64,000 bases of DNA, from positions 496,001 through 560,000 of the forward strand of contig WBVU01000011.1 in NCBI GenBank assembly GCA_009192285.1, read 5' to 3'. This DNA is from Morchella semilibera (taxonomy: Eukaryota; Ascomycota; Pezizomycetes; Pezizales; Morchellaceae). The notes below the pieces were generated by a model that was given only the letters and a program-made list of their open reading frames with translations, made no database searches and was not told where the DNA came from. Positions 4,075 to 62,259 of the stretch are shown here, piece by piece; position 1 is the first letter of the stretch; each line of letters opens with the position of its first letter. The translations under genes were made by a program, and so were the position numbers.

Positions 4075-4092
4075 ATCACTCCAGATCACTCG
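4075..4092 (+). promoter_or_regulatory. Split motif site 1
   Basis: Reads ATCAC TCCAG ATCACTCG. Gene-free DNA, about 1.4 kb downstream of OPY2. Confidence 0.5.
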
Positions 4093-4632
4093 CCTAGCTA
4101 TGTACTAAACCATAACCATTACTACATAAAGGTTTACCCCTGAAGTATAACTACATACATATATCCATAAGCTTCTGTCACGTTTCCCAAACGCAGTTTC
4201 TTTGTTCGCCACCTATGCACCGTCGGCCAGGCCAAATCGAATCGTCGGTTCTGGTTAGCCTCGCAAGCTGCGGATCTAGCCGCTTGTCATGTGGGGAATC
4301 GACCACGCTGCTTTTATAAGGGCTAAGGGATACATGTGCTTGCTGATGCTACGGAGAACCCTAACCCTGCGGGGTGTAATGTAGCCTAGTGTCAGGAAAG
4401 CGGAAAGCCCCACCTCACTAGATATCGCCCAGAAGGCGGGGCGGAGATTGGTGGTGCTGGTGGTAGAGGTCTAGGGAGGCGACGGAAGAGGTAGGGTGGC
4501 GAGTTGGTTAGATGCGAATGAGAGTGAGGTTAGCGAGTTGCACCTGTAGTCGTTCTGCACGGGGAAACAGTGTCATGTCCTCATATCCAGTAGATCCTTC
4601 TTCGCACTATATTAGTTGGTATCCGCTCGTTG

Positions 4633-4650
4633 ATCACAGGAAATCACTCG
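4633..4650 (+). promoter_or_regulatory. Split motif site 2
   Basis: Reads ATCAC AGGAA ATCACTCG, followed by G. Confidence 0.5.
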
Positions 4651-5166
4651 GTCTTGGCTGGTGCTAGCATATGATCTACAAGATCTCCTCCACGATTAGG
4701 AGGGGATCGGATCTTCCTCTCCTTCTCCAGAAAAATCAATTTTTCTAGTAATAAACAACACAAGGACATAGTCGTAGGGCTTATGGAGCTGAAACTCTGA
4801 TTAGTGGGGACATCAGAATTCCTGCTGATGACTAGACCCCCCTGTTGCGTTGCCAGTACTGCCATGAGCCCATATTCTAAGCCATCAGTGTCATAACTGT
4901 GTTGGGCTCTGACTCGGCTCACTATTCTGGCCGTTTGCTCCTCGAGCCTCTATGGGGCATGGAGGAGGCGGCTTGAGTTGTGGAGTAGATTTTGCCCTTC
5001 CGTATATGGCCGCTAGCTTGAAGATCTCTGGCCAGATAGGGGATATATCTGCACTATCTTCTTGATCTTATAAGAGGCGCGAGATAGAGGGCCGTCGCCA
5101 CCTACAATAGCTCTTCACAGCTTACTCGACATTGGGTATGGGTGATGCGATGGCCAGAGGAGGCGT

Positions 5167-5282
5167 ATCCCTTAAGCTGGCGAAAAATGCTGCCCACCCT
5201 AAAGTTGGTGGAGCTTTGTCGATTTCACACCAAAATTTTAACCCCCTATTATAGGGTGGGCAGCATCGCCAGACTAAGGGAT
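5167..5282. repeat. Foldback element with ~31-35 bp imperfect inverted arms
   Basis: The left arm starts ATCCCTTAAGCTGGCGA and ends TGCTGCCCACCCTA. The right arm is its reverse complement (TAGGGTGGGCAGCA ... TAAGGGAT), with one extra AAAA and two or three mismatches. The arms enclose about 50 nt of unrelated AT-rich sequence. This could be a tiny MITE, a hairpin RNA precursor or a fossil inverted duplication. No target-site duplication is obvious. Confidence 0.7.
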
Positions 5283-5566
5283 AATTATATAAGGAAAGAA
5301 GCAGGGGGATATATGGCCGTAATACCAATAGTCTTGATACCGATAGATGTGGTGTGCCAATATTGACGGGAGCGTGGATTTGAAGAAAAAAAAAAAGGTA
5401 TGTACAGGCCATTGACTTAGCCAGCCATAAACCGACGGGTTGCCTAGTTTGCCGAGACTCAAAGAAAGTAGGGGATGAAACAAATGAGATCTTCTAGCTC
5501 ACTGGTGGGTTGGACTACCCAGGAAGTCAACACAAAGTGTGTGTGCATTTATATATAAATTGTTAG

Positions 5567-5584
5567 GTCATATATTATCACTCG
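5567..5584 (+). promoter_or_regulatory. Split motif site 3
   Basis: Reads GTCAT ATATT ATCACTCG. Confidence 0.5.
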
Positions 5585-5997
5585 TGCCCTCCCCTCTTTT
5601 TTTGGGGGATGGGTAAGATTAGCTGCTATAAAAGGAGGGGCTTTCATGAAGGGGGCGAATCAGACCACCAGTCGTGCGTACCACCAGGAGCCAACAAGTG
5701 GGTGGAAGCCAGGGTGTAGTTATATAATTATTGCAATGAATCCTGACTGGACCAAAGAAGGTTAAAAAAAGCCAGGGGCTAGGGGCTCTAGAATTTTCTA
5801 CCTTGTGCAGAGTTCAAACGCTCGATGTTGTGCCAGCAGTCGGAGTGTTACACCCATTCGACCACTGGCCAGGTAGTTGGATATTCTCCGGAACTACATG
5901 TAATATATGACCCATACAACCAAAACAAACTTTCCCCATCCCGTAGATTCAATTAATTACCCCATCCACATAGCTGGGCTGCAGCTATAATACACAC

Positions 5998-6015
5998 CGA
6001 GTGATTGCCTGTGCC
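5998..6015 (-). promoter_or_regulatory. Split motif site 4 (variant)
   Basis: Reads GGCAC AGGCA ATCACTCG. The left half has G instead of T at its second base. Confidence 0.35.
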
Positions 6016-8622: not shown

Positions 8623-10168
8623 ATTATGTATAACTTTTAATGTTTGGGAATAGTTGTGGGGGGGGGGGGGCGGATACGTGTAGTTGGGGTGGCTATAAGT
8701 TGGTTTATGTATCCTCAGTGTGGTTCAATTAAACTCTCTACATAAACTTTCATCTACTACATATATCCGTATTCATGCCTTGCAATATCCTCACAGCTAT
8801 TGCTAGTAGAGTGATATAGACGATAGAGTCCAGTGCACCGTCGTGATACCTGCATCTACAACAACCCTAACCCTTGGATCATGATAAATTAAACACCAGG
8901 TAGACATCACCCTCACCACCTTGTCTGACATACCAGCACATCCCCACCCTAAATTCGCCTCTATACCCCCCGCAAAATGAACCACACACCGACACCCATA
9001 TACCCTCTACCTAGAGGGTCAGAGCAGGGCGAGTGAGTGCTCATGAAGGAGTGGACAGGAGGACCTATATCTGCGTGCGATAGCGAGCTATGTAGTGGAT
9101 TGCCCCCCCGTATCGTGATTGTTGATACCCATTGATGGCCAAACAGGCACCGTTAAAGTTCCAGCCAACACTAGACCCCCAGGGAGGAGAGGGGCAATCA
9201 ACAAGCACATCTGTAAACGCGCCTGAGCCCCTGGCTGAAGTGTGCATAGTACACCAAGCCTGGATTAGCAGCTAGAGATGAAGCGGACGCCGGTAATGTC
9301 GGGATAGGTTTACTTACTGGTTGGGGGCGTCTGGCTGGAACGGACCTTGTACGAACCAGCTCCGGGTACATGTAGCTTACTGGTCAGTGGGACTGATCCG
9401 ATCCCGGTTTGGCGGCACGCGCCCCACAGATGTAAGTATCGTTTCGTTGCTTCTTGTCCGGACATACACATCTTGACACCCTTGATTCCCCTCCCCCGCA
9501 AAGGGCCAAATCCTTGAATTGTAGTGGCTAGCAGGCGGGGGAGTGTGCGTTGCAGGCCTTCATCAGTTTGGGGACCGGAATTTCTACCGATATAGCATTC
9601 CTTAGAAATCCAGGGTAGTTATACGCAGATAAAACCCAGGTCCCTCTATAGCACAACGCATACAACACTACAATGGGAGTCGACTGTACTTCTGCGTGTC
9701 CGTAGTGCGCTGCCCCACCAAAAAAAAAAAAGGAAAAAAAAAAGCCTCGAATTAAGCAGGGGAGTATTACCACCTGTGCTATTCCCTCATTCTGTCCAAA
9801 GGGCGCACACATGCATGTAGCATTGAGTGTTTGGAGGGTTACTTCGTAATGTCCTCTACAAAACCGACATTTCAGTTCCTGTACCAGTATGTCGTTCTTG
9901 GCTCGTTCATTGGTCACATTTAATGTATCTATTCTATTCAATGGTAGGGTTAAGGGTTTTCGACATTTTTATTCAATGTATTCTTTTATATATAGATATT
10001 GTAAAAGTCTAGAAGGAAAAAAAAAGCGGACCCGTGTTTGATCCGAGTGATATTTGGTGATCCATGTAATCCGCGAGAGAGACGGTATCCAAGAAATAAA
10101 AAACCGCACCCCGCCTCGTCCACACATAAAGGCTCCTATAGGTACATATACACAGTCATATTTCCGCC
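8623..10168. other. Gene-free region between the secreted protein and GUF1
   Basis: No gene recognised. It contains a G12 tract at about 8658, a telomere-like AACCCTAACCCT (8863-8874), a TACATGTA palindrome (9367-9374), A-rich runs near 9720-9745, and one split motif site just past the GUF1 stop. Confidence 0.5.
10044..10061 (-). promoter_or_regulatory. Split motif site 5
   Basis: Reads ATCAC CAAAT ATCACTCG. About 110 bp downstream of the GUF1 stop codon. Confidence 0.5.
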
Positions 10169-12528: not shown

Positions 12529-15500
12529 CGGGCGACAGGGAATATTTTTGTGGTGGAGGTGGGCGGAGGTGAGGGGGGGGGTGGGTTCGGGTCGTTGTCG
12601 TTGAGGGTCGTAACCTTTTCAAAAATTCCCGAATGAGGCTCTAGTTGGTTAGTGTGAGGTGCAACGCTACATAGGGCTTAAATCATGAGTGATCACTCGA
12701 CATGTTTTATCAGATGGGAGGATGAGCGATATCGATAGTGATTGGATGGGAAATTACTGGAGTTTGATTCCCACGAAAATCTAGACCGCCTGAGTTGCCC
12801 CCCCCCCCCCCCACATGCCACAACCAAGCAATTCCTTCTAGTCCCTGAACTTCTACCACCAGCCCATTTCCATAAACCGCTCAACAACTTCCCTATCCTG
12901 TGCTTTTCCACAAAAGGGCCATTCCGTACGTACCTAGCAATTGTGAATATACGCCATAGTAAGTTAAATCGGCCAAGTTGACGAATCCATTATGTTGTAG
13001 ATGAATTGGGCAACAAACGTACTTGGCGCAATGAATCTAAACCAGACGCACCAAGACAAACACTGATCGAGAACGGGGGGCACTGAGCACGCGCAAAACA
13101 TTGACAGGCTTATTATTGCGCTTCAACTCCCACCCGTCTCTAGGACAGGCTCTTGCGAGCGAGATCCTAAACATTTTAGTACTCACTTGGCCATCTCACT
13201 CCCCCCCACCCCCCATACCCCACAAAAAACACATCACCATCCCAAACCTCGCTCCAAAAAGGAAAAAGAAAAGAAAAATAAAAAAAAGATAATCCGAAAC
13301 AGAATCACAAAAACAACTTGACCCCCATCCGGCCGGAAATCATTCCAAGCTTTCACCCGCGCCACAGCGAGGGCCGGGGTGGGGAAGGGGGTAAAAGTAG
13401 TCGAAGTGGGGAGGGGTCTGAGATCTGAGACAAGAGAGCCCGAGCACCTGGTTTCCCCTCTCCCCTTCCCTCCCGTAAATCGGATCCAGAGCCGATCACC
13501 GGCTAGCTTCTCAGGCTACATAGGAGTTAACTACATACAAACTCTGCTTGTCAAATCTCCGACGGCGTGAACGTGACCGTCGTGATACTAAAAAAAGATG
13601 TACACTGTTATCGAAGTTTTCTGTCAAGGTGCTTTAAAATTTGAGAGAAATATCAAATTACCGAAGATGGCTTATTTAGTAAAGCTAGTTTTTCTAGACA
13701 TTCTCAACCCTCTCTACATGTAGTCTGGTTGAGAGTTACTAGCCGCGTTCTAATGCTGGAATACGGAGTCTACCGGAATTGAATACAGCTACAATATTGG
13801 TATTTCTTGGAAGATATTTCCCCGTGCTTGTCAGGTAAGCTAAGCCTGCAGCATAATACATTTCTGTATCCTTTGTGTTAGTTTCCAGCAGAGTAAATCA
13901 GTTCTTCTGCAGCTGATAGTGCAGTCCTCCTGTGCAACATCCCTGGATGTTTGAGTGGACAGCGGGAGAATCCGCAGAGCCTCAGGCAGTAAGCGAGGAA
14001 TGCCAAGAAAAAGAGCCGCACTTTAACTTAATATCTGAATGCCTACTTCAACATCTAAGCTAGAAAAAGCTGGGTCCAGCACTTCAGAAAACTGCTCGGC
14101 AATTGCGAGATATAGATAGAAGGAAAGCGCAGCCTCAACTCTTCACCACTTGAAATGTTGAATAATCCATTAAAGGGTATAGGTTGCAAGTGCAATAATG
14201 CAACTAGGTAGGCATAAGCTTCCACAAAAAACCTATTATCAGCGCACTTTAAACGCCAGAGTCGCCTGAGGCCCCGCTAGTGAGCTAAGAGTGGTGAGAT
14301 AGGTAGATTATATTCATTGATAGGTAAATTTGCAGGAACAGGAAATGGTTTAGGGGAAAGGAGGGGGGGGGGAGGGGCTACCTACCCAGTACTATGCTTC
14401 AGCCTTAAAAAGGCCTAACATCGAGTATTCTTTCCCACATTACCGCTTCCCTCAAATAAACCGACTGATCAAGTCAGACTCACCGCAAACGCACTTCCAT
14501 AGAACTCCCAACCCTAGAACCCCTTGATCTTCCAGATCCTCCAGAACGGCAGAGGGAAGTTCTACGCAAGGCCAATACAAACCCTCCGGGAACTTTGATT
14601 CGCCCTCATGCTCATTTAAGATTCATTACCGATGAGGATGATATCCCTGATATTTCAGCCTCGCCATCCAATACCCCCCTGTGTAACGCTTTTTTGCCTT
14701 ACTGCACGTCAAAACCCCGTGACCAACCAAACAAAGCTCCATCTCGTGACATGAAACACCCGTCGTTGGAGAACCCCGGCTGTAAGCGCAACCAGTTCCA
14801 TAAAAAAAAAGCTGTGTTACCTCAACCATAATTGTGTAGATCTACAATATCATCATGCAGGTATAGGGGTTTTGCTTGCGAGAGCTACTTATCTGTCCCT
14901 GCTCTCGCCCACTATCACTTCTCTATTCCCGTGCCATAGCTTGCATCTGCAGGCAGTTGTGTATGAGGGGGAAAAGGAGGGGGATCCAGACCGCTATCAT
15001 TCTAATGAAAACCAAAGACATCGTGAAGAGTATCCCCTGACGATTTGATCGGAAGCGGGGAATCGGTATGTATGAGGGAGGCTCTTTTCAACATTTTTTA
15101 TTTGGTGGTTCGATGGGGGAGAATAAATGAGCGTGTCTGATGGTGAATGGTGAATGGATGTGAAGTGCATTGCTAGCTGGCAAATCATAAACCCCACATT
15201 ATATTGATATCGATCGAGGGACGGAAAAAAAAATAATAATGAATCTGTCCTCTACCCCGCTTGGCCGCAAGCGTTTCGTCAAAGCTTCCTTTACGGCATT
15301 CGCGCGCATCTAAACCTACCCCTCTCCGCACGATTCCCTCCCCCGTCACGATATTTTTTTCTGGTGTTTTTTTTTTTTCCCACATGCAGCAAGATCGCGG
15401 ACTGGACAGTTGGACTTTTGATATCGAATCGGAGGGGCGTCATTTTTCGACGATGCATCCAGTAAACCCAAAGAACTCTTCTGGTATGCAGCGGTAAAAT

Positions 15501-21869: not shown

Positions 21870-21887
21870 CGAGTGACACTCTATGAA
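21870..21887 (-). promoter_or_regulatory. Split motif site 7 (variant)
   Basis: Reads TTCAT AGAGT GTCACTCG. The right half begins with G instead of A. It lies beside two TACATGTA palindromes. Confidence 0.35.
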
Positions 21888-22757: not shown

Positions 22758-22775
22758 CGAGTGATACCTGGTGAT
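22758..22775 (-). promoter_or_regulatory. Split motif site 8
   Basis: Reads ATCAC CAGGT ATCACTCG. Confidence 0.5.
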
Positions 22776-24546: not shown

Positions 24547-24564
24547 CGAGTGATCGTGGGTGAT
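24547..24564 (-). promoter_or_regulatory. Split motif site 9
   Basis: Reads ATCAC CCACG ATCACTCG. About 600 bp downstream of the F-box-like gene. Confidence 0.5.
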
Positions 24565-25141: not shown

Positions 25142-27604
25142 TTAGTCGAACCTGACAATTACTATTTTGTCGCCCACCCTCGTTTGTGATGGCAGTCCCT
25201 TGTCGATGATTTCTGCTTCCTTCCCATAGACCCAATATCTCTTATTTCCGTGGTCCATCTTCGTCAGGATCTTGTCCCGATGTTCCTCCATTCCTGGGAA
25301 TGGTAGATCCGCCTCAGTAAAGGCTGAGGTAGTGTTGTTGGCCACAGTCTCGCTTGAACTGGAACTCGAACCGGCACCGTCGATAGTATCCGTGGCCACG
25401 GCAGCAGTGGTAACAATGCGATTAATTGAGCGGTTAGTACGATGCTGATAGATATAGTCGGTCCATATTCTTCCGAAAAACCTGGACTTTCTTTTAGGTG
25501 ATGGCGGAGGTGTGGGTGTGAGGGCGATTGGGAGTACAGGTTGAAGTTTGGCAGTATTACGGATAGTCACCTTCCTCCCGACATCTAAAATAACCTTATA
25601 CTTTGCTATCATATGAATTCCTGCAGGCACAAAGTCCTTATCATTCCGACCGGGATCCAGCGGGAACTCAACCGCTTCACCATGTGGTGTAAGTATAACA
25701 CCGCCATTGTCAGGCTGTTCCGGTTTCGGGTCCCGCACGATGATTCCTGGTTCAATTGAGCCATATACCGCACACGCGGATTTGTTCTTATTATTGTTGT
25801 CCTTCATCCAGAATAGTGACGGCATAACTCCAATCTCATTGTTTGCCATCATGCAATCGAAATCTAGAGTACGTGGGATGGTCCTTAATTCTATCATGCA
25901 GACTTCACGTTTCCGGTTCCTTGTGTAATAAGTGGGGCTTGGATATAGCTCTTCAAAGTCGACTTTTCCCTCTGCATTTTTGTAGAGGGAAATACTATCA
26001 AAGTCAATATCTGGGTCAACTTCCCATTCCTTGCCTGCACGCCATTCAGTGATTGAGGAAGGTTTGTGCGGAGACGGGCGAGAAGTGATGTCCCAAGTTA
26101 CCATGCTCACTTGCTGTTCATCTGTATCCGTGACGCCAGGGATGTATAAGTCGCCCGTCATCCTAATTCTTACGATGTCTTCATCAGGGTCTCTTGCAAA
26201 AGGTCCCGATGGTTCGATCTTTGGCCCTTTAAGTTCTTTGACTGTGGTTCCTTGATCAAAATTGATCCAGAATGACGAATTAAGTATGCTTCCATTCAAT
26301 TCACCTGCATGACGGCCAAGACTACGCAAAGTAATGCGTTTTATGACAGTGCACGCTGACCATGATTTGCTAGAAGGATCATATTGGGGAACTGAATGCA
26401 CTTCTACCACGGGTCGTCGCTCGGCGCTTGGTGGGAGGAACCCGAGGTAGAAAACCTTGCCACGAGTATCAGCGGCCACTGAAAAGGTGCTTAGAGGTGG
26501 ATAAAGCGACTTCTTCTTAATCGTGAAATGGTGGCCGTCGTGTTTTCCATCCGATTTGTTTCCATGTCCTCTTAAACTACCTCTCACACTTTTTTGAGGG
26601 TCCGCAGTTGGGTAGATATACCCCTCCAACCTCTGTTCTACCAAGTCGAACTCTGCGATCGCGTAAAACTCATTTACCGCAACCATCCAGATGAACGAAT
26701 CGCGTTCAAACCAAGATGCAATCAATCTTCCCCGGTCTTCTTTTTTTGTTGAAAACACAGCACAAGCTGAGTGAGGATGCTCAAAGAACTGTCTTGGTGG
26801 CACGCCCGCCCGGGGAGGTGGGTTACTGCCAAAGAGCCAGTATATCAGCAAGGGTTCTAATAATAAGAGGGTTGTAGGATTAAATGCAAACACATACCCC
26901 CAATTCCAGATTGAGGAAAGTATTGATAGACCTCTCCCGGGCGGGTCCTGGGGTGGTTCGTTTGTCGACGGATGTATGTGCGCCTCACCCACACATAACA
27001 ATATCCCCCGATTCATCGCTAGTCGCACGCTCTCGCCGTCTTTTAAAAAGATTCCTTCGTTTCGGGTGCCCATACATGGGCTAGCCGCCCTTTCAAGATC
27101 TATAACGACATCGGCGCTGTCGTCAGTGCATTGTAGATCTTTAAGGACGACAATTGCTCGAGCCCTTGGAAACAATAAACGTCAGAAACAGAATCTATCC
27201 GAAACCCGATAAGAAAAGAGAGTAAGAGAATACCGTTGATAGGCTAGCAAACTAGCCTCTGTATCAACCAGAAAGCCATTTGACAAGCTCGCAGACCCGT
27301 CTGCGACCTCGCTGATAATCTTCACGTTTGAGGGCTTCCCTTCCTTCCACCTTTGGGATCTCTCATATGTGCAATCAAGGTCAAATCTGGTGCGCCGTAC
27401 TTTTTTTGACTCTGTTGATAAAGGGAAGTATAACTTCTGGGCAAAATGGGAGATCTCATCTGATGCGAAGTATTCGTAAAAATCTTTCGACGTATGGCGA
27501 AGGGCCATAAAATCATGCGATGACAACAGCTCTAGGATCAGTCTATTGATTTCAGGCGGAATCGTTATTAACGAATGTCTTTCAGCCATTTCAATTTTCA
27601 TCAC
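25142..27604 (-). CDS. Large F-box-like protein, function unknown
   Basis: Two exons on the minus strand (27604-27234 and 27164-25142) encode 797 aa. Residues ~14-50 (ITIPPEINRLILELLSSHDF then ALRHTSKDFYEYF) have the pattern of a fungal F-box, so the protein may be a substrate adaptor of an SCF ubiquitin ligase (inference). The remaining 700 residues show no catalytic motif I recognise. They hold a basic K/H/G-rich patch, a PTPPPSPKRK segment and a Ser-rich patch near the end. Many short hydrophobic strands suggest a beta-rich substrate-binding fold, but no repeat is obvious. The 69-nt intron has a GTATTC donor and restores the frame across codon 124. The start could be either of two adjacent ATGs or the sixth codon. 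Such F-box proteins are often lineage-expanded in ascomycetes. Confidence 0.68.
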
Positions 27605-33305: not shown

Positions 33306-34201
33306 CTGCAGCGATCTTAATTTGTTTTTCTTTATCGGTACACGGACTTATTACTATTACTATTATTATTATTATTTACTGTTTTTGTTGGGGGATATCG
33401 GACGGGGGTTCATTGGCGAAATTTATTCCGGTAGGGAGGCACGCGTTCTAAAAGGGAGATGGTGATGGTACCTATAGTACCGGTACTGTATTTACTGGGG
33501 CTGACTCGGGATGAAATAAAATAAGGTTGCAGGTTTACGGTACTTTATTTTTCCTCCTTTTTTTCTTTTTTTTTGCACTTGGATATATAACTATATATAT
33601 TGCGCTCTTTAGAAGTCAATTGCATATATCTCACTTGCTAACTTTGTATCACACTATTGTAATTCCCGCATCTCGCGAGTGATTACCGATGACCCCACAA
33701 TTCCTCATTGCCCTTAAATCAGGCACTGTATTTTCGGGATGAATGTAAACCGGAGGAGAAGTGCCTTCCTATATAAGCCACCCTCGCTTGTTACAAATTA
33801 TTGCGTTTGATTTAGTTACCTCCCGATGATTAGGGCGTGATGGGATTCAAAGAGCTGATTTGTTAAGATTACCACGTGCAACGGGTCATGTATTTACCCA
33901 CCCCCGCACACACGTTGCAGGCTTGAGCTCTTCCTAGCTACCATTCTATCGATAACAACTTTAACGGAAATCGGGAGACCGAGAATCCATACCAATCTCC
34001 ACTATCACATACCGTTCCTGAACCGAAGCGAGAGTTGAGCCTAGGTAATTTGCTAATTCAGTCCAATTGCCTAGCCTAGCTAGCTGGGTGGTCTTTTTTT
34101 TTTTTTCTCGGAGGAAGAAGGAAAAGGAAAATTGGGATTTCCTATTGCAGAATCTACTCTAATTAAAATATTTATTTATTTAATACAGTAGCTCGCCCAT
34201 C
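33306..34201 (+). other. Intergenic: MAD2 3' flank and histidine phosphatase promoter
   Basis: No gene. It holds a (TTA)n run at about 33352-33376, a split motif site at 33676, and a CACGTG (33873-33878) about 325 bp upstream of the phosphatase start. CACGTG is the recognition core of bHLH factors, including the Pho4/NUC-1 family. Confidence 0.4.
33676..33693 (-). promoter_or_regulatory. Split motif site 10
   Basis: Reads GTCAT CGGTA ATCACTCG. It lies between MAD2 and the phosphatase gene, about 510 bp upstream of the latter. Confidence 0.55.
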
Positions 34202-38498: not shown

Positions 38499-41400
38499 AT
38501 GGTTGCTGAGAAGATTGATGGAACGGCGGTTGCGAAGGGGATTAGGGAGCGGATTAACCAAGAGATTAAGAAGAAGCAGGAAACTTCAAGCAGGTTCAAG
38601 CCTAGTTTGACAATTGTTCAAGGTGAGTGATTGATTGGTGGATAGGTGGTGGGATGTCTATTGGAAGAATGGTCACTGACTCTTTGTTTATAGTGGGCGA
38701 TAGATCTGACTCTAGTAATAAACCCCTTAAGATATTCGATTTTCATAAATGAAACAAAACCTCTAATAACAGTTTTTTGAGACTTCCAGGCACCTATGTT
38801 CGCATGAAGCTGAAGGCCGCTGAAGAGGTTTGTACTTCATTGTTCACGTAGGAAAATGGCTTAAATCTGACTCATAATTCTAGGCCAATATCACCTGTGA
38901 CCTCGTCAAGCTTGATGCCGATATTACTGAGGCTCAATTGCTTGAGAAAATCGAACAACTCAACAACGACCCTTCAATTCACGGTATCCTCGTTCAGTTG
39001 CCCGTCCCTAAGCATATATCAGAGCCAGCTGTGACTGCTGCAGTTTCACCAGCAAAGGATGTAGACGGTTTCGGAGCTATTAACATCGGTGAACTTGCAA
39101 AGCGTGGCGGAAAGCCACCTTTTATCCCATGTACCCCTCAGGGTGTTATGGTTCTTCTCAAAGAGTACGGTGTTGACATTTCCGGAAAGCACGCGGTTGT
39201 TCTTGGACGTAGTGACATTGTTGGGTCTCCAGTTTCGTACCTCTTGAAGAACGCTGATGCTACCGTCACCGTTTGTCACTCGCGTACCAAGAATCTTCAA
39301 GATTTTGTCAAGCAGGCTGATATCCTTATTGCTGCCATTGGCCAGCCTCAATTCGTCAAGGGCGACTGGCTCAAGCCCGGCGCTGTTGTTATCGATGTTG
39401 GTACCAACTACATAAAGGATGCGACCCGCAAGTCTGGTGAGCGTCTCGTCGGAGATGTCGACTACGAGTCTGCAAAGGAAGTTGCTTCGAAGATCACCCC
39501 TGTCCCCGGTGGTGTTGGGCCAATGACCGTTGCGATGCTTTTGCAGAACGTCATCACTTCCGCGAACCGTTTCTATGCGGAGAACTCTGACAGGAAGACT
39601 ACACCATTGCCATTGAAGCTTCTCACTCCCGTTCCCAGTGATATTGCTGTATCCAGGGCCCAGGTGCCAAAGAACATTAAAATCATTGCACACGAGCTCG
39701 GGATCTCCGATCAGGAACTTGAACTATTTGGTGCTTACAAGGCCAAGGTCAACTTGGGCCTTCTTCAGCGGTTGGGTCACCGCAGGAATGGAAGGTACAT
39801 TCTTGTTGCCGGTATCACTCCTACCCCTCTTGGAGAGGGCAAGTCTACTACCACTATGGGATTGACTCAGGCCCTCGGTGCTCACTTGGGAAAGATTGCT
39901 TTCGCCAACGTCAGGCAGCCTAGTCAAGGACCTACTTTTGGTATCAAGGGTGGTGCTGCTGGTGGTGGATACTCCCAGGTCATTCCTATGGACGAGTTCA
40001 ACATGCACTTGACTGGTGACATTCACGCCATCACGGCTGCAAATAACTTGCTTGGTATGATAAATATAGAACCCCATTCTTATATTCAATGCTGATAACT
40101 CCTAGCTGCTGCTATCGAGACAAGGATGTTCCATGAGAACACCCAGAAGGATAAGGCCTTGTTCAACCGCCTTGTCCCCAAGAAGAACGGTGTTCGCACT
40201 TTTGCCCCAGTCATGTTCCGTCGCCTTAAGAAGCTCGGAATTGACAAGACGAACCCTGACGACCTGACCCCTGAGGAAATTACTAAGTTCGCAAGACTCG
40301 ATATCGACCCAGAGACCATCACCTGGCGCAGAGTTTTGGATGTCAATGATCGTCACTTGCGACAGGTTACCATTGGTCAGGCACCATCGGAAAAGGGACA
40401 CTCCCGTGTGACTGGATTCGATATCTCGGTTGCTTCCGAGTGTATGGCTGTTTTGGCTCTGTCGAACGACTTGCCGGACATGCGTGAACGGTAACGATTA
40501 CAACACCTATCTAAACATTGAAACTCAAACTAATTTCTGTTTGTGAATAGTCTTGGACGCATGGTCATTGGAACAAGCAGGTCTGGAGACCCAGTCACTT
40601 GTGACGACATTGGTGCTGGTGGGGCTTTGACTGCGCTCATGAAGGATGCCATCAAGCCCAACCTTATGCAAACTCTTGAGGGAACTCCCGTTTTTGTCCA
40701 CGCTGGTCCTTTTGCCAACATCTCTATTGGAGCTTCCTCCGTCATCGCTGACAGGCTTGCTCTCAAACTTGCCGGTACTGAAGAGGATGAGGTCCATGAG
40801 GATAAGGTTGGTTACGTTGTCACAGAGGCTGGCTTCGATTTCACTATGGGTGGAGAACGTTTCTTCAACATCAAGTGTAGATCCAGCGGCCTCACCCCAG
40901 ACGTCGTTGTCATTGTTGCTACTGTCCGTGCCCTCAAGGTTCACGGTGGAGGGCCTGAAGTCACCGCTGGCGCACCTCTTCCGGAGGAATACCGCACTGA
41001 GAATGTCGAGTTGCTCCGTAAGGGTTGTGTCAACTTAGCCAAGCACATCGCCAACGCTAAATACTACGGCATTCCCGTCGTCGTTGCCATTAACAAGTTC
41101 CATACGGATACTGATGCAGAGATCCAGTGCATTCGTGAGGAGGCTATCAAGGCTGGCGCTGAAGATGCTGTCCCAGCTAACCACTGGGCCGAGGGTGGAA
41201 AGGGAGCTATTGACCTAGCTAAGGCGGTTATTGAATCCTCCTCCAAGCCCAAGGACTTCAGGCTCTTGTATAAAACTGAGATGTCCATCGTTGAGAAGAT
41301 GGAGGCTATTGCCAAAGAGATGTATGGTGGGGACGGTGTCGAGCTTAGCGAGCTTGCGAAGAAGCAGTGCGAGACCTACACCAGACAGGGCTTTGGAAAC

Positions 41401-44773: not shown

Positions 44774-45112
44774 AATGTCTTCCTTACTTTTAAATTGACT
44801 TGTATTTGGGCCGTGTATGTTTTTTTCCTTTCTTTTTTTTTTTTTTTTCGCTTGAGGAATTTTGTACAGACTGCATTGGATATCCGGGATTTAAAAATAA
44901 AAATAAGAGATTTTTTCCTCCGATTATGTGAGTGAGAGATAGAGTTAATTCAAGCAGTGACTCCAAGTAAAGAAGTGTCGTCCTGTGTTATAGGGTACGT
45001 GGTCATAAGGTATCACTCGCATGAAAATAGAGTTAGCCTGACTGAACCTTAGCACACTTACCTACCCGCTCCTAGCTTTCTTTTAGATAGCGAGGCCCAC
45101 AGATGCAGTCAT
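44774..45112 (+). other. IDP 3' flank and tRNA upstream region
   Basis: A T-rich probable polyadenylation region (44820-44850), then a split motif site at 45002-45019, which lies 94 bp upstream of the tRNA. Confidence 0.45.
45002..45019 (+). promoter_or_regulatory. Split motif site 11
   Basis: Reads GTCAT AAGGT ATCACTCG. Between IDP and the initiator tRNA gene. Confidence 0.55.
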
Positions 45113-45184
45113 AGCAACATGGCGCAGCGGAAGCGCGCCGGGCTCATAACCCGGAGGTCCCACGATCGAAACGTGGTGTTGCTA
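45113..45184 (+). tRNA. Initiator tRNA-Met (CAT)
   Basis: 72 nt without intron. The acceptor stem is AGCAACA pairing with TGTTGCT, with A73. A1:U72, three G-C pairs at the base of the CTCATAA anticodon loop, and ATCGAAA in the T-loop (A54 instead of T54) are the eukaryotic initiator features and separate it from elongator Met. The A box (TGGCGCAGCGG) and B box (GATCGAAAC) are internal. The Pol III terminator follows directly. It delivers Met to the P site in eIF2-dependent initiation. Confidence 0.95.
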
Positions 45185-45187
45185 ATA

Positions 45188-45850: not shown

Positions 45851-47116
45851 ATGGAGACATCATATATCTCACACCGAAACCCCGAATACACTGCAGCCTC
45901 ACAGCATCTACAGATACAGACATCCAAATACTTAGAAAAACATCATGGCAGCCGTTGCTCTCCCTCCTCAATCAAACATCATGGGCCCACCCCCCGCCGA
46001 CCTCCACTCGTCGCCCCGAGCCTGGTAAAACTCTCCCCCCCTCCCCTCCCCCCTCCCCCCTCCCCCCCCTCCCCTGTATCCTCCTCTCTAACAGCTCCTT
46101 CCAGAACATTGTCCTGGGCCCTCCTCTGCCCTCGCCGGCCAAGGTGATGCCTGCGCCGGCTGCCCTAACCAACAGATCTGCGCCACAGCGCCCAAAGGCC
46201 CCGATCCCGACCTCCCCCTCATCCACGCACGCATGTCTACAATCTCCCACAAGCTACTCATCATCTCCGGCAAAGGCGGCGTTGGCAAGTCCACCTTCAC
46301 CTCCATGCTTGCCTACGCGTTCGCGCAATCCCCACGCACGCAGGTTGGCGTCTGCGACATCGACATCTGCGGCCCCAGCATCCCACGCATGATGGGGGCG
46401 CTCGGCGAGAGCGTGCACACCAGCAGCTCCGGGTGGAGCCCCGTCTACGTCGCTGACAACCTCGGCGTCATGAGCATACAGTTCATGCTCCCCGGCAAGG
46501 ACGACGCCATCATCTGGAGGGGGCCCAAGAAGAATGGGCTGATCAAGCAGTTTCTGAAGGACGTGGAGTGGGGGAAGCTGGATTGGCTGCTGGTGGATAC
46601 GCCGCCGGGGACGAGCGATGAGCATCTGAGCGTGTGCGGCTATCTGAAGAGTAGTGGAGTTGATGGAGCGGTCGTGGTCACGACGCCCCAGGAGGTCGCG
46701 CTGCTGGATGTGAGGAAGGAGATCGATTTCTGTAGGAAGGCGGGGGTGAAGGTGTTGGGGGTGGTCGAGAATATGAGTGGCTTTGTGTGCCCGAATTGTG
46801 AGGTATGTTACCCCCCCCCCACCTAGTTACTGCCATTGCGCCATATTTAATATGTCCTGACTTTGAGCAGGGGGAATCGCAGATATTCCACGCCACCACC
46901 GGCGGCGCTCGTGCGCTTTGCAAGGAGATGGATATCCCCTTCCTGGGCGCTGTGCCCCTCGATCCACGGATCGGAGTGGCCTGCGACTATGGGGAGAGCT
47001 TCTTTGATGCGTACCCGGAGAGCCCGGCTTGCGAGGGCCTGATGGGCATAATTGGGAAGTTGAGAGAGGGTATGGGGTTGCCGCCGTTGGAGGATGAGGT
47101 TGAGGATGAGGAGTAG
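45851..47116 (+). CDS. NBP35: Cytosolic Fe-S cluster assembly scaffold NBP35 (P-loop ATPase)
   Basis: Proposed exons 45851-46024, 46095-46802 and 46871-47116 (375 aa). The N-terminal ferredoxin-like motif CX13CX2CX5C is complete (Cys 64, 78, 81, 87; [13 protein letters not shown]), which distinguishes NBP35 from CFD1. The Mrp-type deviant P-loop [10 protein letters not shown] (about 116-125), [10 protein letters not shown] and the C-terminal CPNC cluster-bridging motif follow. NBP35 with CFD1 assembles 4Fe-4S clusters for cytosolic and nuclear proteins. The start is uncertain. The frame that joins to exon 2 (PPLVAPSL then LPEHCPG) has its ATG at 45851, giving an unusual leader. Two nearer ATGs (45945, 45981) are out of frame with any GT-AG junction I could find. 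The first intron is almost pure pyrimidine. Confidence 0.9.
46027..46076 (-). repeat. C-rich intron tract with G-quadruplex potential on the minus strand
   Basis: Intron 1 of NBP35 contains many C-runs of 4-7 separated by single T. The complementary strand has more than four G-runs of four or longer with one-base loops, a strong G4 pattern. Confidence 0.8.
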
Positions 47117-47431
47117 CTTTTTTTTTTTTTTTTTTTGCTGCCTTGTAGGGGATACCAAGTTCTGCTTGTTTGTTTCGTTTTTTTCGTTTTTTTTTTCGCC
47201 TTTGGGTCATGGAGTTTGGAGTGAAAAATAAATTTTGTAGCTACCGGTGGGGTTGGGACTAGAAAACGTGAATAAATATTGATCATCGGTCCCTCTAGTG
47301 ATCATTAGTACAACCGTGACAAACGCGCTGATCCAACCTCCTCCAAAAGAAGAAAAATACAGGACCCGCTATAATTTAAAGTAAATTAATATTACCGGAG
47401 GCTCTAATATCATCGATCCACTCCCCGCTAG

Positions 47432-47449
47432 GTCATGAAATATCACTCG
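47432..47449 (+). promoter_or_regulatory. Split motif site 12
   Basis: Reads GTCAT GAAAT ATCACTCG. About 320 bp past the NBP35 stop. Confidence 0.5.
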
Positions 47450-48613
47450 GTTGAAACAAAAGGCAGGGACCTCCCGAATTATGGATTTGTAATTTTTTTT
47501 TTGAGGAGATTATGGATTTATCCACCAAGCACTTCAATGGGAGACCTTATCTCCTCTAGAAGACGCCCCGACTCTCTTACGATGAGAGAAGGGGTGAATA
47601 AAAAATGTGCTGTTGTAGAGTTAGTGATGGGGGGGTGTTTACTCGCCTTACTTGTTGTAAGCACCAACATGATCTCTCTCGGGTATGAGAGACTCTCTCA
47701 GTACTAAGACCGTTGACCATACGGTGTCGGGTGCCCCTCAAGGAGAATAGGGTAGGGCTATCTGGGTGCAGAGACCTTCCTTGATACGGTTTACTAAAAG
47801 AGCTGGGCCCTCGCCTCCCTATCCATGGTCTAGACGGGCTAGAGACTTGACCCCTAGTTCCTAATTCCTAGGGGTCTGTGTTCGTCCGAGAGTAGGTTAT
47901 TGGCCTTGGGGTGTTTGTTATATCAAACCCTAAGGCATTTGTCACTTTTCCCAAAGTCCTGGAACTATCCTTCTCCGGTAGGGAGTGTGGGGAGCTCTAG
48001 TTTACAGCAAAAAAGTAAAGAGTAGCCTCTGTCTCTTATGGACTGTCTTCTGGTTGGGAGCTACAGGAAGAGTATGGAATAGGGTGAGATGGTGGCTTGG
48101 GCGTCATCCAGGTGGGTAGTTGATGCCGATGGGGGTGTCATTGATGTACTATATGAGGGTGGAAGGGCTAGAAAATGGACCCAAGGTTCTCCGGTGGTAG
48201 GCACACCTATCCTTCTCTATCATTCTTACTTTCTGCAGCTGCCGTCGGGGCAGGACAAGATGGTTGTATGAAGCCGTCCGTGTCTTTGAGTCAAACCCCT
48301 AGATAGGGTCCACCGGGTTGCCTGGCGGGTCGGCCACAGGAAGCATAGTCAGATAATTGTGGTATTAACACCAGCAAAGAGGACTTGTGTTGACTCCTCT
48401 CTCTCGCCATTGTTTTATGGCGGCGTAAGAGTACTTATACCGTCCCCTCCTCTGGACAGGGGATCCTTGGTCTCTGGGTGCTTGGTGTCCGTTATTTGAG
48501 GACCGGCTGTTTATAGAGCCTGAGCCAGAAACAACAGACTGGCGGGTTGTACCTCCGTTCTTTGATCCTCGGGTGTCTCTTCCGTTGTGGTGGGGTAGGG
48601 GTGTGGCTAGGCA

Positions 48614-48631
48614 TTCACGGGTCATCACTCG
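48614..48631 (+). promoter_or_regulatory. Split motif site 13
   Basis: Reads TTCAC GGGTC ATCACTCG. The first base is T rather than a purine. Confidence 0.4.
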
Positions 48632-50392
48632 CTCTGTAGGTCAATGAGGGTCACAGAAAGGTTACCCAGCCTGCCCACACCACAACCACATCTGGGGACC
48701 CAGGCTTTCTGTTAATACCAACCTGCTTATATATAGGGGACTGACTGGCTTTACAAGACCCCACCATTGCTAATAGCTGGTCAGGGACACACTAATCTTA
48801 CGCTGGAATCAGACCCCCCAGAACCACACGCAGACAAGAGACCAAGTGCCCGAGTGATGTGTGTGAGGTATGGATCTGTTTTTCGAAATGATTTTAGGCT
48901 CTTGGTCTTGCAAGAAATCATGGAGAAGAACAAATCCATACTTGATAGCAAGGCACTCGGGTGGAGTCTATATGGGGATATCGTTACCAAAAGCGCTGGC
49001 AGCTAGCTGGGGTGTTCTTTAAATGGGTTAAGATGGTACTAGCACTTCGCCAATTACTCTAGGGTCTTGGGGTCTAGCTAGCTACGTAGGAAAAGCAACA
49101 GTCTTGTCCCTCAGTTGTAGAAGGGTATTGGATTCTCCAGGCTGTCTGGCTTGCAATATGCAGTAACTACATTGAGATCTCTCCTCGTGTGTAATCGATA
49201 TACGTATACTGCTCAAGGAGATGGGCTTTAACCCCCACTTTGCACTAACCATCTCGTATATACAAGTACTTACTACACACGCGCACACTTTATCCTGTCT
49301 GTACATGCCTGTTAGTATCCGTGACGGAAGAAGCATCTGGAAGGCTACGAAACTTATAGAAAGGACCAGTCCCTAAAACGACCGCTGTGAAGCCCACCAA
49401 CCGAAGGGAGGAATCAAACCCCCAAGTGTGCAGAATGTCAAAGGCCACCAAACCTGCTACAAAACACTACTGTTAGGCCTGTTGTCAAGAAAGCAGCCAA
49501 AACACACCCGTTGAACCTGATGTTGTCGAGCCCTGCTATAGAGTTTAAAACGTTGTATGGGCTAGGAAAGCACCAGTGACTTCCTTACAGAATTGCGCCG
49601 ACCAGCTACAGAGGGAAAACTACAGTAGTAGAGCTTCTAGAAAAAGGTGAGATGAAAGAAGAAATCCAAGAGAACACACAAACTACAGTACCTAAGCCCT
49701 GAACTAACACACACACACGCTTTATAGACCGTGCCCGACATCAAAACAATGCCAAATACGGAGGACAGCCTACAGAGCAGCAACACCTCCGTGCCCAACC
49801 ACAACCAGCCACTCAAGCTGGTTGAGCGAGCAGGAACGTTTGGTGGCTGCAAAGTCGCTCGTCGTTACTATAGGCACAATTCCCCTTGCGGGAAACCCCG
49901 GCTTAGCTCGTGGACATATACGCTCAAGCAAATAGCAAGCTAAAAGAGCTCCAAGAACAAACACTAGCACCGTCGAATTCACTACTATTTATACTTAAAT
50001 CCAAATTTAAAAGGTTATATAGCGTCCGCAACCGCCAACCTCTACGGAATATGTAGCTCATCATATAGCGGCACGACATCCAAGCCCTTCAGGTGATATA
50101 GCTGGCTGGCTGGCTGTACCTACATCACTCCCGGACTATCCAAATATATCAACCCCCCCCCCCCGAGAGATACGGGGCTCCTGTCGAGGCTTGTACATGT
50201 AGGTGTGAGTGGCTCCATCCACCAACCGTACAACATTTTCCACTTCTCAACCTCGAACGGAGGGGACGATAGGGTTTTTTTTATTTGAGAAATAATACCT
50301 TCGGATATGTGTGTATGTGCATCGGTATAACATTTCTTCCCTCTCTACCCTCCTCTACGCGTCTATACTCCCAGAGCAAGGTCGATGGGTCG

Positions 50393-50410
50393 GTCATGGG
50401 TAATCACTCG
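50393..50410 (+). promoter_or_regulatory. Split motif site 14
   Basis: Reads GTCAT GGGTA ATCACTCG, followed by CACTCG again. Confidence 0.5.
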
Positions 50411-50548
50411 CACTCGCACACACACACATGCGCTGAAACTACTCTCAGACAGCTAGACAACAAGAAGAGAAATATGCAAACACCCTGCTGATCTATTTTT
50501 TCTCTCGGTATCTGGCTGGCAAAAGAGGTCGTTCTGGTATTTTCTTGG

Positions 50549-50566
50549 GTCACACAATATCACTCG
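50549..50566 (+). promoter_or_regulatory. Split motif site 15
   Basis: Reads GTCAC ACAAT ATCACTCG. About 200 bp beyond the stop codon of the minus-strand gene ending at 50765. Confidence 0.5.
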
Positions 50567-50764
50567 GTCCCCATATCACAATATCAGAATATCACAAAAA
50601 ACTCACTCTCACGGACGGACGGATATTCGCAGTCATCCCCAAATCCCAATATCCCAATCTTTAAATTCTAAAAAAAAAAAAAAAACTCGGTGGCCTTACC
50701 GGCCAAAACGTTCATTACCCCTTCCTCCTCCCTTACCCCCCAAAGAAGCCAGCAGCAGCAGCTC

Positions 50765-52839
50765 CTACACGCCAGCCGGCCCAACAAAAGCCGCACTCTT
50801 CGCCGGCGCCGGTGCTTTCCTTCTCCTCTGCGGCGCGACTGCCACTGCCACTGCCGTCCCATCACCGGCTCTAGCCTTCTCCCTCCTCGCCGCATCCTTC
50901 ACCCACCTGGCCAGCCACCCAGCCCTCTCCGTCACCACCGGATACTCCTTCCCGCCCTCCTCCTGTGCCCACCTCTTCGGTCCCTGTGGACCTGCACCCG
51001 TGCTGCCGCCCAACGGCGCCGGCGAACAGAGCGCCTCCCAGCTCCCCTCGATACCCACAAAGTTGCCCGTCTTGCGCAGCACCTCTATCCAGTCTGCGCG
51101 CGCGGGCGACCGCGCGGCCAGAAAGATGGGGTATCCGTCGCAGACGCGCGCAAGCCGCGCGACCATGTGTGCATGGCGGAGGAGCTCCTTTGGCGGCGTG
51201 TTGAGTAGGACGTGGCAGAGGAGGAGGCTGTGGAGGGCGTCGGTGAGCAGCGGGTGGTAGGTTATTGACTCGGTGGAGTCGGAGAGGAGGGCGGTGAGCG
51301 CGGCGGAGGTCGGCGTCGGCGCTGGCGCGGTGGGAGAGGTTTTGGTGAGTGCGGTGCAGGGGTACGGGGGGAGAGAGGCTGGCGGGGATGTGAAGAGCGT
51401 TGAGAGGGCGTAGACGGGGGGCGGAGGGAGGGATGTGAAGGGGCGGGAGTTTGCGCTGCTGGCTCCGCCGCCGCCTCCACCACCGCCGGTCCGGGTGAGA
51501 GCGCTGCTGGTGCTGCTGCTGTTAGTGCTGCTCTCGGAGGTGTTGCTGCTACCGCTGCTGCTGCTCTGGCGGTAAAACATCTCGAGGAGCCTTTTGGCGT
51601 CCTTCTCCGTGTCCCCGGATCCGCGGCCACGCCCCAGCTCCTCATTCACCTTCCTGATGAACTCGTCTCGAGTCTCCGCCGGAAGTCCAGGCGTATACTC
51701 AAAGTTCCCCAGGAAGCGAACAAAGTCCCTCAGCGCCCTCTTTGCGTTTGCCCTGACGACCTTCCGGGCTGCCTCCTTCTCCGTTTCTTCCACCGGCGCC
51801 GCGCCCGCCTTTGGCCTGTCCAGCGCCGTCTCGACCGCCCCGGCCGCAATCGTCAGATATGTCGACGCCCTATGGAACAGCAGCTGCGCCTCCAGACTCG
51901 ATGGCGCCTGCTGCTGCTCCTCCCCCATCACCAACGCTCCCCCGCGCGCAGTAGCAACAACGGAGTCATGCCTCGTCGGCCTACACACGTTGAGCCCCGC
52001 CGTCAGGTCCGCCGCGGCGCTGACATGGTCGTCCTTGAACGCCTTCGTGACGGCCCTTGTGCGCAGGGGCGCGGCCTCGCCGGGGCGCTCCCCAATCACG
52101 TCGTCGAGCGGCGCAAGGCTGGTGCACTTTGCGAGCATGCGCGACGGGATCTTCTCGTGGAAGAAGTGGACGTACTTTGCGTCCGGGTCGTTTGGGTTTC
52201 GTTGGAGCACCAGCGACGCAACGTCCTCGAGCGAGCTGGCGCTCTGCATTGTCGCGACGGAGGCGGCGATCTCGTCGAGGTGGTAGGCGCGCGAGAGCTT
52301 CTGCGTGGCGAGCTCGCGCATGCGGTGCTTGCGTTCGCGGGAGAGGCGCGGGGCGGAGGGGGAGGCGGAGGGGGAGGCGGCGCGCACGGCGAGAGTCGTG
52401 GCGTCGTCGACCAGGTGCCGGATCTGGACGAGGTCCGAGAGGACGGAGGGGTCGATGGGGCGTGGGCGGGGGGCATGGTGGTTACTGTGGAGGAGGGAGG
52501 TGAGGACCTCGGGGGGGAGCTGGAGCCAGGGGCCGTGGAAGGAGGAGATGTAGCGCCAGTGTCTGTTGGGTGGGGGAGGTTAGTAGATTGTTCAATTGAG
52601 AGAGGTAAGTCCAGATCAATCCAATTCTTAGATTTTTGGGATAGACAGCGTCGCCGGCGCTCGAATGATATTGGGAGGGAGGGGGGGAGAGGGGAGGGGA
52701 AGGGAAGGGGATGAATATACTTATTCCTACAGATGATTAACGCCGAAGACGACGGCGCTTCATTCTTCTCCCCCGGGGTATCTCCCATGGCCGCGGTCTT
52801 GTTCTTCTTTCCGGCAGTCTTCTTTGGAGGATTCGACAT
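50765..52839 (-). CDS. Conserved fungal protein of unknown function
   Basis: Two exons (52839-52721 and 52562-50765) encode 638 aa. The N-terminal ~40 residues are Lys-rich and low complexity. Then come segments that look highly constrained: HWRYISSFHGPWLQLPPEVL, RERKHRMRELATQKLSRAYH with LDEIAASVATMQSASSLEDV, YVHFFHEKIPSRMLA, and late in the protein TYHPLLTDALHSLLLCHVLL and ARLARVCDGYPIFLAARSPA. The helical pattern with repeated A/L positions suggests a TPR-like scaffold. Ser- and Gly-rich linkers (SSSSGSS, a G9 run) separate the blocks. I believe similar proteins occur widely in Pezizomycotina, but I know no function. The region is GC-rich, so long ORFs on the opposite strand are shadows. 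The intron (158 nt) is long for this genome and contains a GGGAA-type repeat. Confidence 0.8.
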
Positions 52840-59500: not shown

Positions 59501-59533
59501 TGAGTATACTTCACATACTTCACACACACACAC

Positions 59534-59557
59534 GTTCTGTTCTGTTCTGTTCTGTTC
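59534..59557 (+). repeat. (GTTCT)n microsatellite
   Basis: Nearly five copies of GTTCT next to a short (CA)n run. Confidence 0.9.
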
Positions 59558-59571
59558 GTGCGAAGGCGCGC

Positions 59572-59589
59572 CGAGTGATCGTCTGTGAC
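59572..59589 (-). promoter_or_regulatory. Split motif site 16
   Basis: Reads GTCAC AGACG ATCACTCG. About 680 bp past ALG8. Confidence 0.5.
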
Positions 59590-60815
59590 TGGGCCTTGGT
59601 TGGGGCGATACGGTACATGTAGTTGGAGGTTTACTTCCTGCGTGTATGTATGTGTGAATATGGCCCCTACTGTTTCCTGGAGGAGGCCAGCTGCGGTGCG
59701 TATCTCTTGTTCCGTGGTTCTAGTACTAGTGCTCGGGGCATGTAAGTAGTTCCCCCCCCCCTCCCTTCGATTTCTGGACCGTCCGTTGCCTACATACTTG
59801 TACCGCCGCCGAACCCGGGGCCAGCTGGCCCCTAGGATACCAATGCCGGCGCCACAGTCCGTGTATTATTTCTTTTCCCGTCCCGACTCTGCACCCCTGC
59901 GCTCTGACTTCGTCACGGCATCGCATCGCAGAAAACGTTTGGCCCGCTCCGTTTACTCGGCTCTCTGCAGCTACCAGCGGGTGTCGCTGCTATATATATC
60001 CCACAGCGGCCGATCGCAGTGGGCTGGGTGGGTCAAGATCCTATTGGATCGTGCCGGCCCCCAATGTGCTGAAACGGGGGCAGAAATCTTTGGGGGTGGT
60101 TGGTGTCATAGAGTAGATGCTGGCCCCCTTTGAGGTCATTCGAGGGGGATGATGGTTGGAGATGTAGTTCTGCGGGCCGGTTTCGGCCCGTGGGAGCCAG
60201 TGAGGGGCTTTTCCACACCCGAGCGGGAGATCGATCAGCAACAGCCAATCCCTTCACGCACGCAGAGGGTTATCAACCTATAATCGAAATGGACCAATTT
60301 CCTTACGGGTTGTCGCAGAGAAAGAATATGCCGAGAACCTGCCGGTTTCGTCGTAAAATAAACGGAAGAGAATGGGAATGTCCAGTCAGCCGGACGCAAC
60401 CTCCCCCCCCCTCCCCCCGGGGCGCCGGGCATATTTTTAGACTCTTGAGTAAATGCACCCATGGTTGTCTAGCCTGATCTTTCATGGCTTGGAGGGATAC
60501 AACCTAGGAATTGGATGAAGGTGCTACTCTCTGGAGTAGTATAAACAACATCACAGCTGAATTGAGCGCAATTCGATATCTACAGCGCAGGCACAGAAAC
60601 AGGATTGTTGGGAAAGCACCCTAGCTTCAGTAATAAGGCAATGTGCTTACTCCGCCCTGGTATTTTTAACGGTCTTGTGACATAGCACATATATCTGGCC
60701 CCGTTATTATGATGGAAGGCAGGGTTTTTCTGACTGTTCCCTTACCTGACTCCGTTCGACGCTGATACTGGACCGAGGCAACCTTATTATCACAACCTTC
60801 ACATGCCAAGAAAGG

Positions 60816-60833
60816 CGAGTGATATCTTGTGAG
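60816..60833 (-). promoter_or_regulatory. Split motif site 17
   Basis: Reads CTCAC AAGAT ATCACTCG. Confidence 0.45.
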
Positions 60834-61238
60834 TAGCTGGGTCTCATTTACAATTCTCAATCGATGAGCAGAGAATCTAGATACACAGAGATCTCTTCCC
60901 TCTAGGGCAATGTAATACAAAGGATTATGCCCGCCACAATTCTCTCCCGTTCGATCGTACCGCGGACATCGAAAGCCAACGAATAAAGCCAATCCGAGAA
61001 AACTATACCCCATCATTCGAACGGGAGCCACCGCCCCCACGCGCCGGCTTGGTCCGATAGAAGCTTAATGTGCCATTGGCCAGTCTCAGGCCGGTTGCCT
61101 CTTATTACTTACCCCTGGGGTCCCTTCCTTCCTTTCCATCCCTCGTAGTCTGGGGGAATTATGGCAAGGATTTCTCCCAATTTTTTTTTTTTACAAACAA
61201 TATCTTCAACTAGAAGTTTGTTTGATACCGGTCATAGC

Positions 61239-61256
61239 GTCATAAAACATCACTCG
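61239..61256 (+). promoter_or_regulatory. Split motif site 18
   Basis: Reads GTCAT AAAAC ATCACTCG, with an extra GTCAT eight bases upstream. Confidence 0.5.
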
Positions 61257-62241
61257 CTGGCGGTGCGGTTGCAAAGACTGCTCCGTAGAGGGCTGCCGAA
61301 TACATGCACCTTTGACGTCTTATACCAGAAAGGATGGGATTTTTTATAAAGCCCCGACCCCTGGGCCTGGCGAACGAGAGTCATACATGTGCCTTCAAGG
61401 CCTGTAGTTACTATTTTTCCCTTCCCCTCCTTAGGATAGACTAAAAACAGATACTGAAGGTGCCGGTGACGGGGATGGGGATAAACTGATGTCGCCCCTC
61501 TTGAGAATGCAGTAAGACTGCTGTATGCTTTGTACGTTGAGATAATACGGTAAATCCTTACCACGCTGCGCCAGGCAGGCAGTACCGACCCCCATGATGC
61601 TCCCCGGTACTGTATGTAATAGATCAGTATACCGTGGTAGCCCATGACGCACACATTTTGAAGCCGATGAAGCGTCACTTGTACAATAGTACCCCTCCCC
61701 ACGGCCGTAGCTAGGCAGGGTAAAGTATTCCTCGTCGAAACATAACCAGGTTCTTGCTTCAGTAAGCGGCTGTCGATACCCCGAACACTCTGTCGTAATC
61801 AAAAAACATAGACAACTCGAAATCAGGAAGGGCAGTGATCAAGGGAAAGAAAAGCCAACTATAACAGCACCACTTCCAGCGTTTTCAAAACTGTAACTAC
61901 CGAGAGGGGGGGGGGGGGTTAAGCTGTACGGAGTTGGCCAGACACGGTGCAGACTCCCTTGAGTAAATAAGACTTTTTTGTGGCCCTGAAAGTGGTTATC
62001 CTTTTTCTCTTCGTTCGACCTGACTACGGTACATCCATACGGCCTATTACGCGCTCTAGAGGCTCCCCAGTGCTAAATGATCCATAGAATAGTACAAGTA
62101 AGGCGCAAAACTACATGTAATATCCCGAGGATGCGCGTACCCGAAACAAAACCCTATACGTCCATCCAGACGCCCAGGTGTTATTTTTGGCTGCGCATAG
62201 TCCACCAACTAGAGACAGAACATGGAAGCCAAACACACAAA

Positions 62242-62259
62242 CGAGTGATATCGCGTGAT
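62242..62259 (-). promoter_or_regulatory. Split motif site 19
   Basis: Reads ATCAC GCGAT ATCACTCG. Confidence 0.5.

Follow-up and report, generated by a model that had tools for sequence, protein, structure and literature searches.

A 64-kb stretch of the Morchella semilibera genome (bases 496001-560000 of contig C10, hereafter the window) carries, scattered mainly between its genes, copies of a split DNA motif, RTCAY-N5-RTCACTCG. There is good support for its being a DNA site to which a protein binds. Such rigidity, maintained without change at thousands of positions outside genes, is most readily accounted for by selection on the sites of a highly specific DNA-binding protein. The motif is found mainly at gene ends and in convergent gaps and seldom at divergent promoters, which suggests a boundary, and we see an even chance that the putative protein acts at gene ends as a boundary of transcription units.

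A rigid two-part site in thousands of copies

The original prediction listed 17 copies of TCAY-N5-ATCACTCG on the two strands of the window and held that far less than one would be expected by chance. All 17 are recovered on the strands given and match the full pattern TCAYNNNNNATCACTCG, and 100 dinucleotide shuffles of the window contain 0 matches to the exact pattern. Earlier plus-strand starts lie one base upstream of those used here because the leading R had been counted in; this R, claimed for the whole family, is present in 15 of the 17 sites, the exceptions being 48614 (T) and the minus-strand site at 60816 (C). When up to two mismatches to the R-prefixed pattern are allowed, the window yields 25 matches versus 3.8 expected. 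The two near variants reported at 5998(-) and 21870(-) both exist, and one-mismatch copies also occur at 3570, 7905 and 39265.

In the whole assembly (56.76 Mb in 23 contigs) the exact pattern occurs at 6,041 sites (3,044 forward, 2,997 reverse) versus 7 (6 and 1) for the backwards pattern, so that its genome-wide frequency is far above the control. With up to one mismatch the count is 11,482 (control 394), and an independent 200-kb block of contig C2 contains 30 exact sites versus 0 in the reversed sequence. It should be noted that C9 carries a copy, 100% identical, of 3,701 bases of the window, and that family and motif matches reappear at nearly the same coordinates within the pairs C12/C13 and C21/C22. 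The contig pairs C9/C10, C12/C13 and C21/C22 thus look like near-identical copies, possibly two haplotypes kept in the assembly, and the number of distinct sites is therefore below 6,041; site densities and the ratio to the control are little affected. In an unbiased four-base dyad scan of noncoding DNA the motif is the second strongest family, behind the palindrome TACATGTA.

How strictly is the site built? In the 264 kb formed by the window and the C2 block, TCAY-N5-RTCACTCG is found 56 times, and any other gap from 0 to 24 bases gives 0-2 copies. Assembly-wide, exact patterns with gaps of 6-16 bases number 833 when pooled (control 89), and many of the places listed hold a normal five-base site together with a second, chance TCAY or a neighbouring site. 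Among single substitutions in the 264 kb, the A after the gap is replaced by C in 7 cases, by G in 9 and by T in 1, versus 47 exact copies; the first T (5) and the last G (6) also tolerate change, and the remaining positions show nearly none. Sites of the STCACTCG type, with C or G before TCACTCG, number 2,389 in the assembly (control 29), and TCAR replaces TCAY in 58 (control 10) versus 6,041 with TCAY. Among 80 aligned sites purines make up 70% of the bases just before TCAY and 81% of those one position further out, the spacer is variable with a purine preference at its first and third base, and the flanks outside the core are near background composition.

The two halves, (R)TCAY and (A/g/c)TCAC, repeat each other in direct orientation at a distance of ten bases, with TCG following, an arrangement that would suit one putative protein whose two similar domains contact the same face of the helix. 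The fixed gap and the variable spacer and flanks support the earlier view of a protein site with two contacts one helical turn apart rather than a transposon end. Moreover, a comparison of the 400-base flanks of 105 site entries, with the core masked, found no repeat family: the flanks do not align as one, and among the 40 of 44 BLAST pairs listed the non-overlapping ones are four matches of 29-63 bases. Of the two outcomes that would have refuted the original prediction, a frequency no higher than in controls and flanks forming one repeat family, neither was thus obtained. Among the words that co-occur near the sites, drawn from partly overlapping flanks, the three examined for placement (CGCCACA, GGCGCGCC and GCGGGTTA) do not match that of the motif.

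Location at gene ends and in convergent gaps

Genes were modelled with a home-made gene finder based on a hidden Markov model, with 16 models for the window and 51 for the C2 block. Of 10 window proteins tried against Pfam, 6 matched the expected families, the checked genes including chitin synthase and MBF1; the names of GUF1-, IDH- and ALG8-like genes were given on visual inspection of the translations. Coding sequence holds only 2 of the 63 sites in the 264 kb. When the 56 exact sites are classed and compared with random positions, tandem regions hold 24 (16.0 expected), convergent regions 19 (6.4), divergent regions 3 (7.9), coding sequence 2 (18.4) and introns 1 (5.0); the other 7 (2.3 expected) sit at block edges and were left unclassed. 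Counted by intergenic region, with genes below 300 coding bases omitted, a site including the C/G variants is present in 11 of 12 convergent, 15 of 31 tandem and 2 of 12 divergent regions, and an exact site in 11/12, 14/31 and 1/12, respectively. The density of exact sites per kb is 0.477 in convergent, 0.292 in tandem and 0.024 in divergent regions, the last being the longest (median 4.1 kb versus 2.7 kb for convergent regions).

The contrast between convergent and divergent regions has a p value of 0.00075 by label permutation and of 0.00064 by Fisher's test. Under seven gene-finder settings a site is found in 11/12, 10/11, 10/10, 10/11, 13/14, 11/12 and 12/17 of the convergent regions and in 2/12, 3/11, 2/10, 2/11, 2/14, 2/12 and 2/17 of the divergent ones, with Fisher p values from 0.00007 to 0.0075. 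Rotating the sites against the gene models places 34.0 of them in intergenic DNA (standard deviation 3.8; 52 of 63 observed), 7.2 in convergent regions (2.6; 21 observed) and 9.4 in divergent regions (2.8; 4 observed); 0 of 400 rotations are as extreme for the intergenic count, the convergent count or the convergent-minus-divergent difference. Outside the training set, 30 site-centred loci on contig C1, some of them overlapping, 12 without a coding call and 1 genic, have 18 gene 3′ ends versus 5 gene 5′ ends facing the site, while 600 random windows of the training blocks have 168 versus 138. None of nine comparison words tested has a convergent-over-divergent bias of this size, and those common enough to judge, TACATGTA, TATAAA and CCAAT, lack such a contrast. 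In tandem regions the sites favour the 3′ end of the gene upstream (19:8 under the base setting).

With sites at gene 3′ ends and in convergent gaps and few between divergent genes, a promoter element is ruled out by placement, and the promoters that had been named among the settings of the motif find no support. The accompanying statement that all copies lie outside predicted genes is nearly right; the site at 12683 is intronic in the GUF1-like model, and the variant at 39266 is coding.

Along the first 1.67 Mb of contig C1, 192 exact sites stand at a mean gap of 8.6 kb and are clustered (coefficient of variation 1.57). There is no overall strand pattern (95 strand runs versus 96.8 expected), though of 44 neighbouring pairs less than 1.5 kb apart 31 have both sites on the same strand. 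When each site is compared with the gene whose 3′ end is closest, 35 are on the same and 24 on the opposite strand; those in tandem regions are more often on the sense strand (19:8; p = 0.052, the sites being clustered), those in convergent regions are not (9:12), and the median distance past the stop codon is 0.85-0.9 kb. So weak a strand rule suggests a DNA-level, mostly orientation-free element. The longest site-free gap on this part of C1 measures 151 kb (C1:635606-786552, no exact site, two STCACTCG variants in its last 13 kb) and is perhaps a centromere or heterochromatin. Small tandem arrays of sites occur at C1:5477751-5477838 (four sites, 23-base period) and at C1:25795-25847 (18-base period).

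A putative boundary element

What could a protein do at such places? It would read two direct copies of approximately TCAY, ten bases or one turn apart, plus the TCG extension, at sites that stand downstream of genes and between convergent genes. Once bound, it could stop read-through polymerase coming from neighbouring genes and/or hold a nucleosome or cohesin boundary at the site. Candidate actions are a roadblock, a torsion or nucleosome barrier and a cohesin stop, between which the sequence does not discriminate. From position we infer the boundary function; a roadblock, insulator or cohesin action would be a further step. Of the regulatory, boundary or replication factor proposed originally, the boundary part fits the gene-end and convergent placement best, and the promoter-regulatory part does not agree with it. 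As would be expected of an insulator, the sites lie between transcription units, given the intergenic excess over the rotations.

Several points weigh against a boundary function. The gene models are home-made, built without RNA data and restricted to the 264 kb. The 3′-end lean in tandem regions falls to 7:6 under one of the seven settings, the distance from the stop codon to the site is often 0.6-2 kb (median 852 in tandem regions), which is far for a simple terminator, and nearly half of the tandem regions, together with all short ones below 650 bases, are without a site. In addition, the flanks have no AT-rich or other nucleosome-excluding composition, as the AT fraction, taken in 20-base bins across 800 bases around the sites, stays within 0.49-0.56, with an intergenic mean of 0.55; this flat profile argues against intrinsic nucleosome exclusion and also against a yeast-like origin.

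A bolder version of the boundary reading, conceivable to us if rather unlikely, is that an architectural protein particular to this lineage, reading a split site of 13 bases, is the fungal counterpart of animal insulators, marking nearly every convergent boundary and many tandem ones and setting the borders of transcription units and cohesin loops. Filamentous fungi would then have a sequence-coded boundary system. According to a 2023 review, boundary or insulator elements of fungi are still to be characterised and CTCF is absent from them, being restricted to animals (PMC10246852); a sequence-coded mark at 11 of 12 sampled convergent regions would make this question testable. CTCF and other animal insulators resemble the motif in the long rigid site, the thousands of intergenic copies and the proposed boundary role, but the motif lacks an orientation rule, as the strand runs on C1 indicate. 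A CTCF-like convergent pairing of orientations was not seen on C1 either (pairs ++ 52, +- 47, -+ 47, -- 45). In fission yeast, convergent genes delineate loop boundaries, and the passage that describes these cohesin boundaries names no sequence motif (PMC10246852); the likeness lies in convergent genes serving as boundaries, whereas here a motif marks the places. For annotation, the motif is a strong handle on gene boundaries in this lineage. Literature searches for the motif string or its setting returned, among the matches listed, no title that describes it.

Alternative explanations

It could be imagined that the motif is a general regulatory or enhancer site, where a transcription factor acts on promoters at a distance as an organiser of the Abf1/Reb1 kind, but this is unlikely. 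A rigid bipartite site in thousands of copies does resemble those of general regulatory factors, and tandem regions carry sites too. The Abf1 site of Saccharomyces is RTCRY-N5-ACG, and the motif shares with it the left half RTCAY, the five-base gap, the A after the gap, the bipartite build and the thousands of bound or potential places. The resemblance noted earlier holds for the left half and the gap only; the right half is ATCACTCG and not ACG (ATCAC is kept), so that the Abf1 core is not present. A search of the genome with the Abf1 profile PF04684 gave 0 matches, but none of 14 control genomes gave one either, so that this negative lacks a working positive control. More importantly, divergent promoter regions have the lowest site density. 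Yeast Abf1, Reb1 and Rap1 are described as blocking polymerase II (PMC7586999) and Reb1/Abf1 as insulators that decouple genes between divergent promoters (PMC11482950). The motif, in contrast, is enriched between convergent genes, scarce at divergent promoters and without the promoter or nucleosome-free 5′ location of yeast general regulatory factors. As its placement is the reverse of that described for Reb1/Abf1, it is not the site of a promoter-type factor of this yeast class, though it may work like one. Reb1/Rap1 roadblock termination sites are alike in the proposed action, a bound protein stopping read-through polymerase; their own sequence is unrelated to the motif.

Distinctly improbable is a replication element, by which the motif would recruit the origin recognition complex (ORC) or an origin helper. 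Origins also tend to lie between convergent genes, so that convergent placement and exclusion from genes would suit them, and ABF1 sites are present at some yeast origins. The flat AT profile, however, leaves no AT-rich unwinding region on either side of the site, and approximately one exact site per 8.6 kb on C1 is denser than the usual origin spacing. An RNA element in 3′ untranslated regions, or a cleavage or polyadenylation signal, would agree with the proximity to gene 3′ ends and is nevertheless very unlikely, as both strands are used, the sense lean in tandem regions is of borderline significance and the median site is 0.85-0.9 kb past the stop codon. Equally hard to credit is a mobile-element remnant or target, or a recently spread short repeat without function: scarce one-mismatch copies at most positions could mean youth, and small tandem arrays and co-oriented close neighbours exist, but spacer and flanks vary, and the excess of Y over R, 104 to 1, would not survive in a repeat that was decaying.

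Sites in the window and other features

The sites TCACTCCAGATCACTCG (4076..4092, +), TCACAGGAAATCACTCG (4634..4650, +) and TCATATATTATCACTCG (5568..5584, +) are intergenic in tandem regions, the first in a + + one. The site at 10044..10060 (-) lies between convergent genes, with the stop-codon end of the minus-strand GUF1-like gene 117 bases away, and that at 12683..12699 (+) in the predicted first intron of this gene, the first exon of the model being uncertain. Tandem - - regions contain 22758..22774 (-) and 24547..24563 (-), the latter 587 bases from the 3′ end of gene 25142-27589, and a tandem + + region contains 33676..33692 (-), 378 bases beyond the gene ending at 33305. Four plus-strand sites share the convergent region 47116-50765 (47433..47449, 48615..48631, 50394..50410 and 50550..50566). 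To the right of the last modelled gene is 59572..59588 (-); its context and those of 60816..60832 (-), 61240..61256 (+) and 62242..62258 (-) are unclassified.

The site at 45003..45019 (+) follows the gene ending at 44773 by 237 bases and precedes a transfer RNA (tRNA-Met) at 45112 by 92. In the window and the C2 block, 2 of 4 tRNA calls lie no more than about 200 bases from a site (45003-45185 in the window; position 151500-151775 in the C2 block), which are too few to judge.

Of the variants, TCATAAAATGTCACTCG (3571..3587, +) has A to G at the tolerant position, GGCACAGGCAATCACTCG (5998..6015, -) the first T to G, and TCATAGAGTGTCACTCG (21870..21886, -) the first A of the right half to G and a T at the R position. 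The variant TCACCGTTTGTCACTCG, of the GTCACTCG type (39266..39282, +), is within the coding sequence of the C1-THF synthase gene and probably a chance match. Other DNA-binding candidates in the genome are a single TRF-family gene and 44 HTH_Tnp_Tc5 matches, and nothing links either to the motif. The palindrome TACATGTA, with 0 copies in coding sequence and no gene-end bias, is the strongest noncoding word of the 264 kb, where it has 128 copies, often in the form CTACATGTAG.

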